Of a DNA stretch of 64,000 bases, positions 35,669 through 43,197 are shown one piece after another. A model generated the notes under the pieces. That model was not told the origin of the DNA and searched no databases. It was given only the letters and a program-made list of their open reading frames with translations. This DNA comes from Crocinitomicaceae bacterium (GTDB lineage: Bacteria > Bacteroidota > Bacteroidia > Flavobacteriales_D > Crocinitomicaceae), in assembly GCA_024639405.1 (NCBI GenBank), contig JAHEIL010000001.1, positions 124,001 to 188,000 on the forward strand, given 5' to 3'. Made by a program: the position numbers and the translations under genes. Position 1 is the stretch's first letter. Each line of letters begins with the position of its first letter.

Positions 35669-37735
35669 ATTAATCTTAAATCGCAATTGAATTGTAATAT
35701 CAGACTTTACTGAGCCCTTAATTTCTTCTGCACCTGATCCGATAGTTTTGCGATTATTATATATGAAAGCACCGTATTTCACCCACAAATCAACGTGTCG
35801 CGCAAAAGAATAACGCATCAATAAATACGCGCGACTTCCTTGGTAATAATACGCGGGAATAGAAAACACATTCAATGCATTGTTTTCATAACTGTAAATT
35901 CGACTGTCGTAACTGTCAGAATCAAACAACGCAAATCGAAGTGCAACATCTAAAGGAAAAGATTTTGGTTTAAATAAAATATCCTGCGTTAGGATCATTC
36001 CTTGTTCAGGTATATTGCTCGGTCGATTAATGAACACATATTCGATTCTACTTTTAATAACTAATTGATCACTAACAGCGTACGATAAATTGAGTCGAAT
36101 ATTTTGTTGATCAATGTTCTCAATTTCAGTAATTGTTCCATCTGTGTCTCTGCTGTTTTTTTGCCGTTGTTGAAAACGATACCTTCCATAAATCTCAAGT
36201 ACTTTATTCGGTTTATAGGTTAATTGCGTCAAGAGTTCATACCCTTTGGAAGGCGCGTTTGTTTGATATTTCAGCCAATCACTTTGAAAAAAATCAACAT
36301 ACGATTGCATAATCCAAGGTCCATTCAATTTCGTTTTGAGTCCCAAATAAACTCCTCTTTCATTTTGAGTTGAGCTGCCTTCTGAAAAACCTGTGTTGTA
36401 AAATGTTTGATACCCTCTGTTGTAATCTCGGTAAACGATACTTAAAGTAACTTTCGGATCCAATGCAACCAACATACCATGAACAGTTGCCCAATTATTA
36501 GAAAATGAAACATGTGCGATTTCACCAAAAAAAATGGCGTTTTTCCAATTAAAACTGTAATCAACACTGGACGAAACCATTCCTTTTCCTCGGAAATCGT
36601 AGAGATTGTAAGGCGTTGTTGCTTTCACATAATTCGTTGAATAACCTTGATAGACCACTGCTGCCCCAATGGAAAACGCTTTGTAATGGTAACGCAAATT
36701 TCCTCCAGAAATTTGTTCAGTTAAAGTATGCCTGTTATTCAATTCACTTGTGGTGCGATGCAATCCAGCCAGTTGTATGCTCGAAACAAAATATCCATCG
36801 TCGGATAATGAATCTTGTTGAATGTTGGCGTCGATTTTTTTCTGTGAATAAAACCCAATAAACGAAACGTTTTTGTAAGCTAATTCAACAGCTGCACCGC
36901 GTAAAAACCGCACTTCATCAACTGAAGAATAAGGTCGAATGGTAGAAGCTGTTTTTTTAACATTCGTAACATCCGCTGTTTTTCCAAACGCATAACCTGT
37001 CCAAAGATTCAAGCCCTGCCCTATTTGCACTTGGTAATCTCCCAAGGCGATACTTTTAATATACTTTCCTCCTTTATAAAATGCGTGGAACGAATAAAAA
37101 TCAAAGCCGTTTTTTTGTTGATTAAACACCACTTGTTCACCCGGATCTTTTTCCATTGTTAATCCAACACTCAAATTGGTACGGTAAGAAAACTTAATAC
37201 GATTGTACAAATGATCCGCACTGCCATAATAATAATTATTACTTTGATTTTTTATCGTATCTGGCACGGAAGCGTATCCTTTTTTGGATTCAATTGTTCG
37301 TTGATACCTTGATAAAATTTCAAACGTTCCAAAACGTATTATCTCCTTCAACGAAACATGTAAATTATCTAATTTATCATCCACTTTCACAAAAGGTAAA
37401 ATAAGTTGAATCGTAGCTAAATCGAGGTATTCTAAACTTTGTAATTCATAAATTGAAATAAAATCACCAAATAATTGGCGGTGTAAAAGAAGGTTACTTA
37501 TTTGTAAATCAGTTAATAAAAACAAACTTTTTAACGATTCTTCATCTGTGTTATTCAAATTAATTGGATGATCAGAAAAATCATTTAATCGTTCAACGAT
37601 TGCCGACAAATCAAGGTCTTCCGACGCAAATTGCTCCGCAATAAATTCAATCCGTTGTTGAATAATATCGTTTTTATCTTGCGCGTTGGATTCAAAACAC
37701 AACAGAAACACCAAAAGAAAACCTACTTTTTTCAT
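35666..37735 (-). CDS. Helix-hairpin-helix protein with a C-terminal outer-membrane barrel
   Basis: 689 residues from ATG 37735, which gives a clean signal peptide (MKKVGFLLVFLLCFESNAQ); an in-frame start at 37780 would prepend 15 residues and is rejected. After the signal, about residues 50-120 carry two ComEA-like helix-hairpin-helix motifs (INLNNTDEESLKSLFLLTD, then FGDFISIYELQSLEYLDLA). The remaining roughly 560 residues are amphipathic strands rich in Tyr, Phe and Gly, and the C-terminus IQLRFKIN fits an outer-membrane barrel. The function is unknown; I recall such HhH/barrel proteins in other Bacteroidota. The start overlaps the stop of the PorV-like gene (ATGA), so the pair is translationally coupled. 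Confidence 0.82.
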   Translation of the reverse strand: MKKVGFLLVFLLCFESNAQDKNDIIQQRIEFIAEQFASEDLDLSAIVERLNDFSDHPINLNNTDEESLKSLFLLTDLQISNLLLHRQLFGDFISIYELQSLEYLDLATIQLILPFVKVDDKLDNLHVSLKEIIRFGTFEILSRYQRTIESKKGYASVPDTIKNQSNNYYYGSADHLYNRIKFSYRTNLSVGLTMEKDPGEQVVFNQQKNGFDFYSFHAFYKGGKYIKSIALGDYQVQIGQGLNLWTGYAFGKTADVTNVKKTASTIRPYSSVDEVRFLRGAAVELAYKNVSFIGFYSQKKIDANIQQDSLSDDGYFVSSIQLAGLHRTTSELNNRHTLTEQISGGNLRYHYKAFSIGAAVVYQGYSTNYVKATTPYNLYDFRGKGMVSSSVDYSFNWKNAIFFGEIAHVSFSNNWATVHGMLVALDPKVTLSIVYRDYNRGYQTFYNTGFSEGSSTQNERGVYLGLKTKLNGPWIMQSYVDFFQSDWLKYQTNAPSKGYELLTQLTYKPNKVLEIYGRYRFQQRQKNSRDTDGTITEIENIDQQNIRLNLSYAVSDQLVIKSRIEYVFINRPSNIPEQGMILTQDILFKPKSFPLDVALRFALFDSDSYDSRIYSYENNALNVFSIPAYYYQGSRAYLLMRYSFARHVDLWVKYGAFIYNNRKTIGSGAEEIKGSVKSDITIQLRFKIN

Positions 37736-38538
37736 TTGGCTTGATAGGTTATTGAAAATTGAGGCGACCAACCGAGCCATTGGTTGTAAGCACTTCCAAA
37801 ATCGAGCTGGATGCGTTTACTTTTAAATCCGAAACCAAAGGACAACTGCAACGGACTCTTAGCTAATCCACCACGCATAAAGAACCGTTTTTTCAGGGTG
37901 TATTCTAGTCCAATTTTTAAATTGGCAGCATACTCAATTGTTTTTTCAATTTCCAATGCACTTGTAACATGTTCAGAAAATTGATAGGTGGTTCCTAAGC
38001 GAAAAACAGTTGACAAACGCTCGTCTTGATTGGCTAAAACTCGGGTTCTACCCACATTATAAACACTGCAACCTATTTGCCATTTTGGAGATAAAATTGC
38101 CAAAAAACCCGCCTCTGCAGTTACAAAATTTGTAGCTCCATAAAAATTTCCCAGTGAAATGCGGTGGTAATTGAGTTGTAAACCAGCATAAAATTTCTCT
38201 GCAAGCTTCAATCCGTATCCAAAACCTATTTTCGTTGTCGTTAATGCTTCATTGCCTTGGTAAGTTGCTCCTACCGAAAACACACCTTTCTTAGTTGGAA
38301 GAACGATTGCCAAACCTTGCATTTGAAATTCTTTTAATAAAAACCTGTTTTCATAACCGAGACCAACAGAGAACTGTTCCATTTTAGCCAAGGCCCCTGG
38401 ATTGTTATAAAATGCCCAAACATCTGCAAAACAAATAGAGGCATTCGCTAAACTTTTTGAACGCGTGCCAAAAGGCTCATACGCTTGGGAAAACAAGAAA
38501 AATGGAAATGCGAAAAGAAGCAATAACAGTGGTTTCAT
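37732..38538 (-). CDS. PorV/PorQ-like outer-membrane barrel protein
   Basis: 268 residues with a signal peptide (residues 1-18, cleavage near LFSQA). The N-terminal RSKSLANASICFADVWAFYN then NPGALAKM is the 'A.....A..d......NPA.L' pattern of the PorV/UPF0164 barrel family, and the rest shows alternating strands ending in FSITYQAK. In T9SS species PorV and PorQ take part in cargo transfer, but this one sits with an HhH/barrel gene and not with por genes, so I only claim the fold. A near-consensus -7 element (TATCTTTA) precedes it at about 38547-38554. Confidence 0.77.
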   Translation of the reverse strand: MKPLLLLLFAFPFFLFSQAYEPFGTRSKSLANASICFADVWAFYNNPGALAKMEQFSVGLGYENRFLLKEFQMQGLAIVLPTKKGVFSVGATYQGNEALTTTKIGFGYGLKLAEKFYAGLQLNYHRISLGNFYGATNFVTAEAGFLAILSPKWQIGCSVYNVGRTRVLANQDERLSTVFRLGTTYQFSEHVTSALEIEKTIEYAANLKIGLEYTLKKRFFMRGGLAKSPLQLSFGFGFKSKRIQLDFGSAYNQWLGWSPQFSITYQAK

Positions 38539-41074: not shown

Positions 41075-41608
41075 TTATTTAACCGAAATTACGAGTTTTT
41101 TATTTAAACCGCCTTCAACAATCCTATATAAAGTATCGAGCTCGATGTCTTGCGAACCATTTTCCAACTTAGTGATATACGTTCTGGATGTTCCAGATTT
41201 CAATGCAACTTCGTCTTGTGTTAATTTTGCATCCATGCGCCATTTTCGGAACAACTCGCCGATGGAATGATTCCGTTTTTCATCAAGTTCACTAAGTGCA
41301 TAGAGTACATCTGCGCCAACATCAAAAGCAGTAGCTTTCAATTGCCCATCTTCACCCGTCATTTGTAACACAACGTTTTCCCACATCAATGTATTGTTGT
41401 TTAGCTTAACCTTTTTGAACGCTTTAGGATCTAATAATAGATATTCAGGATCGCTAGGTAATACATGCCAATTATCGTTTAATATGCTATTAAAATCTAA
41501 GATTCTGTTTTCGCCATTACTAAATAAAACAGACAAACGAAGATTTTTGAAATCCACTTCATTGATTTTCAAAATCTTTGGTAAACCCCTAAATGATCTC
41601 ATGCTCAT
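41075..41608 (-). CDS. DUF2442-XRE helix-turn-helix protein (antitoxin-like)
   Basis: 177 residues. Residues about 9-95 are a DUF2442 domain (KILKINEVDFKNLRLSVLFS and GENRILDFNSIL). Residues about 118-172 are an XRE/Cro helix-turn-helix (IGELFRKWRMDAKLTQDEVA, then LKSGTSRTYITKLENG). It is 24 nt downstream of the DUF4160 gene on the same strand. DUF4160 and DUF2442 genes are commonly paired and are suspected toxin-antitoxin pairs; the HTH would repress the pair's own promoter, where a 16-bp imperfect palindrome is seen. DNA binding is well supported, the antitoxin role is inference. Confidence 0.83.
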   Translation of the reverse strand: MSMRSFRGLPKILKINEVDFKNLRLSVLFSNGENRILDFNSILNDNWHVLPSDPEYLLLDPKAFKKVKLNNNTLMWENVVLQMTGEDGQLKATAFDVGADVLYALSELDEKRNHSIGELFRKWRMDAKLTQDEVALKSGTSRTYITKLENGSQDIELDTLYRIVEGGLNKKLVISVK

Positions 41609-41632
41609 TTCAATTAGTTTTTTGTTTCCTAT

Positions 41633-41917
41633 TTATTTTATTTCATTCTCTGGCTTTGTAACTATTACCGGTGGCGCCAATCTGGGATTCAATTGATAAA
41701 AATTGTTCACCAATCGCTCCCGTCTATCTCCTTCAGCAAGCCAATCTTGAACGATTCTTAGCTTCTTTGACGGCAACCTTCCTCCCATTACTTCACTAGT
41801 TTTGATATTTAGCAATGTTTCGTATTCTCCGTATTTCACATGAATATGAACAGGTAAATGCTCCCTACTATACATCTCAATTTTTATTCCGCTTAAATTC
41901 TCAATTAGTGGCGCCAT
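41633..41917 (-). CDS. DUF4160 protein (toxin-like)
   Basis: 94 residues from ATG 41917; an in-frame ATG at 41929 is only 3 nt from the -7 element and is less likely. The sequence follows the DUF4160 pattern closely: GIKIEMYSREHLPVHIHVKY then GEYETLLNIKTSEVMGG and LPSKKLRIVQDWLAEG. This small family is mostly found next to DUF2442 genes and is a suspected toxin or effector partner; no activity is proven as far as I know. It is the first gene of the pair with the DUF2442-HTH gene. Confidence 0.8.
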   Translation of the reverse strand: MAPLIENLSGIKIEMYSREHLPVHIHVKYGEYETLLNIKTSEVMGGRLPSKKLRIVQDWLAEGDRRERLVNNFYQLNPRLAPPVIVTKPENEIK

Positions 41918-41931
41918 TTTAATCAACATTA

Positions 41932-41962
41932 CAAATGTACCTAATTAGATACATAATTACAA
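41932..41962 (-). promoter_or_regulatory. Promoter of the DUF4160/DUF2442 pair (TTG-N20-TACATTTG)
   Basis: On the minus strand TTG at 41962-41960, 20 nt, then an exact TAnnTTTG at 41939-41932. Transcription should start near 41926, which favours ATG 41917 as the translation start. Confidence 0.7.
41937..41952. promoter_or_regulatory. Imperfect 16-bp palindrome, candidate operator of the DUF4160/DUF2442 pair
   Basis: GTACCTAATTAGATAC pairs at seven of eight positions with its reverse complement. It lies between the -33 and -7 elements and overlaps the -7 element by three bases, where a dimeric HTH repressor such as the DUF2442-XRE protein could block transcription. Confidence 0.45.
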
Positions 41963-42156
41963 CTTTTTTTTACTTAAGTTTAGAATAAAGAAGGTAGTTA
42001 AGTGAAACTATTTTATCGCAAAAACATAAAATATGTATGCTCTTAAAATAAGATGTATTTGATTATAAAAATAATAACAATGCAGAATTAAAATGTAGCT
42101 TAATGGTTTTCTAATTAATAATCTTTTATCGAATATACGAAAAAAAATTAACGCAC

Positions 42157-42185
42157 AAAAAAAAGGGTTGACGAATCAACCCTTT
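42157..42185 (-). terminator. UUCG-capped rho-independent terminator
   Basis: Perfect stem AAAGGGTTGA / TCAACCCTTT (42162-42171 with 42176-42185). On the minus strand the loop is TTCG and a run of eight T follows (42164-42157). It terminates transcripts coming from lgt or from the candidate small RNA. Confidence 0.9.
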
Positions 42186-42300
42186 ATACCTAATATACCT
42201 AACCTGATTATCATGAAACCACTCTACGTTAATCAAATACACATTTTCACAAAACGTGCCACTATTGTAGCTATTTAAAAATCAGGTATTTACTATTTTT
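42157..42300 (-). ncRNA. Candidate structured small RNA (6S-like shape, UUCG-capped terminator)
   Basis: The 413-nt gene-free gap between the DUF4160 promoter and lgt contains a nested fold on the minus strand. An outer 8-bp stem pairs ACCUGAUU (42287-42280) with AAUCAGGU (42209-42202). Inside are CUAC/GUAG, AAUA/UAUU and a terminal hairpin CACGUUUU-GUG-AAAAUGUG (42257-42239), separated by bulges. A 9-nt direct repeat (42185-42202) leads into a perfect 10-bp terminator hairpin. A long irregular hairpin with a central open region is what 6S RNAs look like, but I cannot match a consensus. It could also be just the lgt 3' untranslated region. The rest of the gap (41963-42150) shows nothing. Confidence 0.4.
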
Positions 42301-42342
42301 ACCTTATTCGATTTATCCCATTTTAGGAATAATTTTCCAATA

Positions 42343-43197
42343 TTAAGATTCGATTGGTTCTTTTTTTAAGCCGCTATACAATAAAATACATCCTGCTAGC
42401 ACCAAAGGAATACTCAATAATTGTCCGGTATTCAATACCATGTAGGAATCACGCGCTGTTTGTCCCAATTTTACAAATTCAACAAGGAAACGTGCGCCAA
42501 AAATCAGAATTAAAAACGTTCCAAAAACAACTCCTGGCTTTCTCCACGCTTCTTTTTTCCAATAAATAAAGAGTAAAATTCCAAAAGTTAATAGGTAACA
42601 AATGGCTTCGTACAATTGTGCTGGATGACGCGGAGTTGGATCGAAAGCACCTATATTCTCATTGTAGAATTGCTGAAATTGAAACGCCCAAGGCAGATTC
42701 GTTGGATCACCCACCATTTCGTGGTTCACCAAATTTCCCAAACGAATAAAGGTTCCCGCAATGGCAATAGGCGCAGCAATGCGATCTAGCATCCATAAAT
42801 ACGGTTTGTGAATTACTTTTTTCGAGAAATAATACAATACAATTAAAATTACCACCGCAGCACCGTGACTCGCTAAACCACCTTCCCACACTTTTACAAT
42901 GTCTTCCGGATGCGATAAATAACCACGTTCATATACAACTCCGTCCTCACCTATTACATCCCAATAAGGTCCGTAAAAAAACACGTGTCCCAAACGCGCA
43001 CCAACAATGGTTGCAAACACCATGTAAAACACTAATTTATCGAGAATTTTCTCACTGATCCCTTCTTTCACAAACATGCGTTTGATGACGAAAAAACCAA
43101 GAATTAAACCTGTTACAAAAAGTAAACCGTATAAATTCGGAGTCTTGTATCCTTCAATCAGTGTTGAACTGACGTTCCAATTAATTGCTGCTATCAA
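42343..43197 (-). CDS. lgt: Prolipoprotein diacylglyceryl transferase
   Basis: 284 residues with about seven hydrophobic helices. The Lgt signature blocks are present: GARLGHVFFYGPYWD, WEGGLASHGAAVVI (catalytic His region) and RLGNLVNHEMVGDPTNLPWA, and RHPAQLYEA. It moves diacylglycerol from phosphatidylglycerol to the lipobox cysteine of prolipoproteins in the inner membrane, and so acts on the several lipoproteins of this window. It is 6 nt downstream of trhO on the same strand. Confidence 0.95.
   Translation of the reverse strand: MIAAINWNVSSTLIEGYKTPNLYGLLFVTGLILGFFVIKRMFVKEGISEKILDKLVFYMVFATIVGARLGHVFFYGPYWDVIGEDGVVYERGYLSHPEDIVKVWEGGLASHGAAVVILIVLYYFSKKVIHKPYLWMLDRIAAPIAIAGTFIRLGNLVNHEMVGDPTNLPWAFQFQQFYNENIGAFDPTPRHPAQLYEAICYLLTFGILLFIYWKKEAWRKPGVVFGTFLILIFGARFLVEFVKLGQTARDSYMVLNTGQLLSIPLVLAGCILLYSGLKKEPIES

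Follow-up and report, generated by a model that had tools for sequence, protein, structure and literature searches.

The window analysed here is a stretch of 64,000 nucleotides from a Crocinitomicaceae bacterium, whose genome (G000, 2.63 Mb) belongs to a freshwater genus, the habitat being read from sample names. On the minus strand of the window the gene lgt, identified by its Pfam LGT domain (E 4.6e-62), ends with a stop at 42343, and the next ORF, of the DUF4160 type, starts at 41929. The gap between them is gene-free, in agreement with a preliminary description of the locus. The DUF4160 ORF is followed by a DUF2442-HTH ORF (together 41075–41929, minus strand), and the pair resembles a toxin–antitoxin module.

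Conserved elements of the RNA gene and its promoter

Within the gap lies a small RNA gene of about 78 nt, sRNA-A (42157–42235, minus strand), which forms a block conserved among paralogs at unlinked loci. Transcription is predicted to start at 42235 because the promoter geometry places +1 at this position, one base before the sequence GATTA and 24 nt past the second G of the -24 GG. The near-invariant core hairpin GAUUA-ACGUAGAGUGGUUUCAUGA-UAAUC (42206–42234, minus strand) holds in its loop the proposed seed AGAGUGGUUUCAU (42213–42225), which is antisense to AUGAAACCACUCU and has matches at start codons. The tail AGGUUAGGUAUAUUAGGUAU (AGGUUAGGUA) follows at 42186–42205 with a (U)UAGGU motif that is conserved in the copies, and the intrinsic terminator noted in the preliminary description, with its 10-bp stem, UUCG loop and T8 run, is indeed present at 42185–42157.

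When the core hairpin is projected on five homologs it keeps 12–13 of its 13 pairs, and the loop word GUGGUUUCA was found in every copy seen. Distant copies close the hairpin with other stems, CAUUU/AAAUG in G015 and CUUU/AAAG in the second copy of G023, while the outer stem of the core hairpin is otherwise nearly invariant and therefore gives weak covariation. The terminator is present in each copy examined and has a different stem sequence in almost every one. Across 14 distinct stems and nine pairs we counted 47 double-sided changes with 100% pairing; as the stems were chosen as hairpins this pairing is partly by construction, which the diversity of their sequences is not. A small ORF within the RNA was considered and rejected, the ATG after the loop leading into differing frames or being missing in other copies.

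Three elements precede the RNA gene on the minus strand. The first is an enhancer (UAS) doublet TCTTAATATTGGAAAATTATTCCTAAAATGGGATAA at 42313–42348, made up of two TTCYNAAAWTGGGAA-like sites with a spacing of about 20 bp and overlapping the last bases of lgt. Its left half had previously been taken for a weak -7-like TAATATTG at 42338–42345, a reading we replace, as the site is part of the enhancer and no -7 box. Between enhancer and promoter lies an IHF-consensus-like site TAAATACCTGATT (42280–42292), with one mismatch to YAANNNNTTGATW, and this is followed by a -24/-12 sigma54-type promoter, TGGCACG-N4-GTGA (42247–42261), in which TGG stands 27 nt before GATTA.

The 23 copies with a sigma54-type promoter align without gaps all the way between enhancer and -12 element, a distance of 105 nt, and the position of the enhancer doublet is fixed in them. 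The IHF-like site occurs at one fixed offset, with a mean of 2.2 mismatches there as opposed to 5.3 at other offsets, and has at most one mismatch in 11 of the 23. The promoter consensus is TGGCAYR-N4-TT(T/A)C, with TGG 27–28 nt before GATTA in nearly all copies; the family has TT(T/A)C or a weaker sequence as its -12 element in place of TTGC, and the GTGA of the window copy is atypical. A promoter matrix trained on 17 copies, all from other species, ranks the window site first among 127,792 positions with a score of 42.7, the next independent site scoring 3.5. Three or four divergent copies lack the sigma54 layout and appear to have a housekeeping-type -7 box. Comparison of the copies thus establishes the RNA gene, its terminator and its promoter architecture, whose layout, as read from the DNA, matches that of a sigma54 promoter, and the locus is very likely an RNA gene with a promoter of this type.

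Copies across the genus and a candidate activator

Counted across searches, about 30 copies occur in 17 of the 26 genomes of the genus, three of them in G000 and up to three in each of the others. A DNA search of 60 relatives gave orthologs downstream of lgt in two sister species (83–84% identity) and paralogs at unlinked loci, in G000 on contigs C33 (76% over 188 nt) and C41 and many more in other species. Tandem copies are found in G002 (three) and G009 (two). The named records that contain the exact core are metagenome-assembled genomes filed under Crocinitomicaceae, Flavobacteriales or Flavobacteriia, with the exception of two titled Chitinophaga pinensis. Covariance models of the core match genomes of the genus only, and in 200 genomes of the family and 399 of the order the matches elsewhere are weak and chance-like. 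Judged by its sequences, this is a hitherto undescribed multicopy family of genes for short regulatory RNAs, carried by uncultured bacteria of lakes.

Weak model matches at three loci in other genera (L053, L212 and L215) were judged spurious, as was that at L064, an IS- or MITE-like inverted end. At L064 and L179 (G006:C50 and G000:C40) there is an inverted-repeat element, an IS or MITE end, and the spurious matches arise there because the ends themselves contain AGTGGTTTCA. The pattern was found in no viral contig of the viral collection, on which ground a link to prophages was rejected.

The RNA gene or genes lie beside clpB in most of the genus (L029, L031, L032 and L036, with the clpB side seen at L033, L034, L037, L052 and L060), and in several genomes a speD-like gene occupies the flank opposite clpB. 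In the clade of the window the copies have moved to the neighbourhoods of lgt, yraN and tatD/ansA. At the 3′ end of clpB in G000 there is a second RNA gene that is driven by sigma54 and whose enhancer is laid out in the same way (L178:1663–1763, minus strand, equal to G000:C36:12162–12262, and downstream of it). It is convergent with clpB, recurs at five other loci (L185, L033, L034, L028 and L189) and in most of them ends with UUAGGU(A) and a terminator; in G002 and G009 its hairpin presents UUUUUUCAUGU, which is antisense to AUGAAAAAA.

RpoN is encoded in all genomes of the genus searched, together with 4–10 sigma54 activators in each. One conserved activator gene was traced through weak matches of the enhancer region directly upstream of that gene. 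In 15 loci of the genus the doublet stands at most 50 nt from the activator ATG with scores of 18–33, no lower than those of the RNA genes, while at other gene starts the scores have a mean of -1.8 and 4 of 66 reach 15. The enhancer site common to the RNA genes and the activator gene is thus established by comparison. The activator of G000 is the EBP on contig C18 (L196:5856–7199, minus strand), a REC-AAA-HTH response regulator, whose operon continues with a hybrid kinase (HNOBA, PAS, HisKA, HATPase and REC domains) and an Hpt-like protein. From this sharing of a motif, on which the link between activator and enhancer is built, we infer that the RNA gene is likely to be controlled by this EBP.

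A search with the promoter model retrieved, besides the genes of the sRNA-A family, the second RNA gene at clpB, kinases, a single-REC protein and secreted proteins. The model also picked out a sigma54-type promoter in another family of the order (L164:1501–1614 and downstream, G051:C123), where it is followed by an RNA-like sequence that contains GGUUAG repeats and has a strong terminator; the wiring is similar and the RNA unrelated.

Candidate targets and alternative readings

The loop is reverse-complementary to AUGAAACCACU(CU), which corresponds to the opening codons of several proteins that are secreted or belong to the outer membrane. In G000 TGAAACCACT occurs 19 times, against two occurrences of the reversed word, and four of its sites are the starts of long signal-peptide ORFs, namely MKPLN (TPR/PD40), MKPLY (a large secreted protein), MKPLI (DUF2279) and MKPLL (window position 38538). 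The last of these provides a candidate target site in the window, ATGAAACCACT at 38528–38538 on the minus strand, at the start of a signal-peptide ORF of 268 amino acids (37735–38538). A fifth site, conserved in all three sister species, is found 24 nt upstream of a Glycos_transf_4 gene. The strongest predicted duplex, at the MKPLN start, has an energy of -32 kcal/mol and a z of -3.5 among 109 G000 genes, in a ranking that used loci fetched for containing the 10-mer; its energy was equalled by 1 of 100 shuffled RNAs, and the site is kept in G006 and G025. The start-codon 11-mer has similar rates in RNA-bearing and RNA-less genomes of the genus, being not clearly commoner in the former. Synonymous codons were also compared in G000, with four long CCA starts and none with CCB, numbers too small to count. 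Hfq (PF17209) was found in none of 40 relatives, a search in which the controls matched in 5 of 14 genomes, and the pairing would therefore proceed unaided or via another protein.

The explanation that we regard as likely, taken as a whole, is that these are multicopy trans-acting RNAs driven by sigma54 and an EBP, which act as antisense at start codons. The hybrid HNOBA/PAS kinase and the Hpt protein would feed the REC-AAA-HTH EBP of the same operon, which would bind the enhancer doublet so that sigma54 RNA polymerase transcribes the gene, the IHF-like site aiding by bending the DNA. The RNA (42235–42157, minus strand) would then fold into a hairpin presenting AGAGUGGUUUCAU, a UUAGGU tail and the terminator, and its loop may pair with AUGAAACCACU at the starts of mRNAs for secreted and outer-membrane proteins and block the initiation of translation. 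Among possible mechanisms this blocking of start codons by an antisense loop is the likeliest, and it is proposed tentatively, with both the pairing targets and the repressive sign of the effect being putative. The degrees of likelihood expressed for the RNA gene with its promoter, for control by the EBP and for start-codon blocking are judgements and were not computed.

An RNA that is equally real and equally controlled by sigma54 and the EBP could instead act as a sponge of the CsrB kind, its UUAGGU tail titrating some RNA-binding protein (one with a single RRM, for example), with no antisense action. Such a sponge would fit the failure to find Hfq in the 40 relatives, as well as the UUAGGU that precedes the terminator in other sigma54-driven RNAs retrieved by the promoter model and the repeats of GGUUAG in one such RNA from another family. 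Each RNA however has just two or three copies of the motif, and the hairpin loop is conserved at least as well as the tail, so that we consider the sponge improbable.

Much less probable still is that the transcript belongs to lgt, as a product of its 3′ UTR or as its terminator, or that it is the leader of the downstream DUF4160 gene. The RNA does run in the same direction as both genes between which it lies, and its enhancer reaches into the last bases of lgt, but other copies adjoin clpB/speD, yraN or tatD/ansA, often in convergent orientation, with promoter and terminator unchanged.

The preliminary description had drawn nested stems across the gap and had likened their shape to that of a 6S-type RNA. 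Positions 42300–42150 on the minus strand (151 nt) do fold with an energy of -38.3 kcal/mol, compared with -26.1 ± 3.6 for shuffled sequences (z -3.4), and the stems can be drawn on paper. As RNA structure, however, the outer stem and the CACGUUUU hairpin decay in homologs: projected on the same five, the former keeps 6–7 of 9 pairs and the latter 2–6 of 7. The upstream arm of a long irregular hairpin across 42287–42202 would be promoter DNA, for positions 42280–42287, which form the outer stem's 5′ arm, fall within the IHF-like site, and the CACGUUUU hairpin coincides with the -24/-12 promoter region. Compensating changes in relatives, which had been proposed as a check, are strongly evident in the terminator, a check that the outer stem fails, and the copies have only the downstream block in common. 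Scanned permissively at E<=10, the region 41900–42600 gave a match to neither 6S-Flavo (RF01685) nor Flavo-1, the two Rfam models suggested earlier; 6S-Flavo was also unmatched in 40 relatives, where the controls were unmatched too, so that this result says nothing on absence from the genomes. A 6S-type or other long irregular hairpin is thus scarcely tenable, and what stands of the earlier reading is a regulatory RNA with an intrinsic terminator.

A dispersed DNA repeat or MITE-like mobile element without RNA function, as several copies per genome and their tandem arrangement in places might suggest, is hardly credible given that no terminal inverted repeats were noticed around the copies, that conservation tracks promoter, hairpin and terminator, that the terminator stems covary and that the same promoter drives protein genes.

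Comparison with known regulatory RNAs

Few regulatory RNAs of the Bacteroidota are understood. To our knowledge, the known families of this phylum are transcribed from housekeeping promoters, and their partners are not Hfq. In the whole window no Rfam family, Qrr included, was matched at the gathering score. The antisense RNAs proposed here share with 6S-Flavo RNA that they are a structured RNA class of the phylum, but the conserved long hairpin with an internal bubble is not found, the corresponding outer stem losing two to three of nine pairs.

The closest likeness in wiring is to Qrr1–5 of Vibrio (PMC2680268, PMC10162802), which are likewise several paralogous short RNAs per genome. At the sequence level both have a sigma54-type promoter with upstream activator sites, the -12 element here being atypical, and the LuxQ-LuxU-LuxO system resembles the present operon in its NtrC-type response regulator and in the hybrid kinase and Hpt parts of a phosphorelay. 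The differences are that neither the sequence nor Rfam gives a match to Qrr, that the EBP scores 355.6 where the LuxO model has a cut-off of 800, that Qrr acts with Hfq, which was not found in the 40 relatives, and that some copies here have other promoters. The phylum is also another one, and the kinase, whose likeness is one of parts, bears HNOBA.

FopS and GibS of Bacteroides thetaiotaomicron are multicopy small RNAs of the Bacteroidota of about 65–70 nt with an intrinsic terminator (PMC11697453). FopS, which works with RbpB and has been deposited in Rfam, pairs near the start codons of mRNAs for outer-membrane proteins (PMC11697453); the RNA described here is exactly antisense to several MKPL starts, with no clear enrichment relative to RNA-less genomes. 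In contrast to the canonical housekeeping promoters of FopS there is a TGGCA at -24, three or four divergent copies being housekeeping-like, and the seed is in a hairpin loop rather than in an open 5′ stretch. There was no Rfam match to FopS either, provided that the release used includes this family. By the tests made, the family is a member of neither group, having Qrr-like wiring and a likely FopS-like action.

We would put forward as rather unlikely the strongest form of this comparison: a counterpart, in the Bacteroidota, of the quorum circuit of Vibrio. In it an HNOBA (heme/NO-associated) hybrid kinase, Hpt and a sigma54 response regulator would drive several Hfq-independent paralogous RNAs, and the loop common to these would mask the AUG of mRNAs that encode signal peptides (AUGAAACCACU), so that a set of outer-membrane and type IX secreted proteins is shut off jointly. 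If the proposed circuit is true, its design would be convergent with that of Vibrio Qrr. Comparison supplied the promoter and its enhancer, a candidate activator with the kinase operon, the terminator and a seed open to testing, and the whole circuit from signalling to RNA is testable in one step.

In Flavobacterium psychrophilum a putative regulatory RNA, Rfp36, lies downstream of a sigma54 (SM4) promoter, and its expression cluster includes the gliding motility operon and exported proteins (PMC9723704). Compared by description only, Rfp36 differs in being a single RNA, for which the text consulted describes no activator or enhancer (PMC9723704). The SM4 regulon as given there comprises chaperones, ClpB among them, the gliding operon to which sprB and sprF belong, exported proteins and Rfp36, and the putative regulon retrieved by our promoter model agrees with it (PMC9723704). 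If the proposed circuit is true, it would add an activator and an RNA layer to this flavobacterial sigma54 regulon of envelope and gliding genes (PMC9723704). In G000 the promoter model also turned up a sigma54/enhancer promoter of the same type at L180:618–711 (minus strand, contig C17); it precedes the gene for a secreted protein, whose divergent neighbour is a type IX secretion gene, PorP/SprF.
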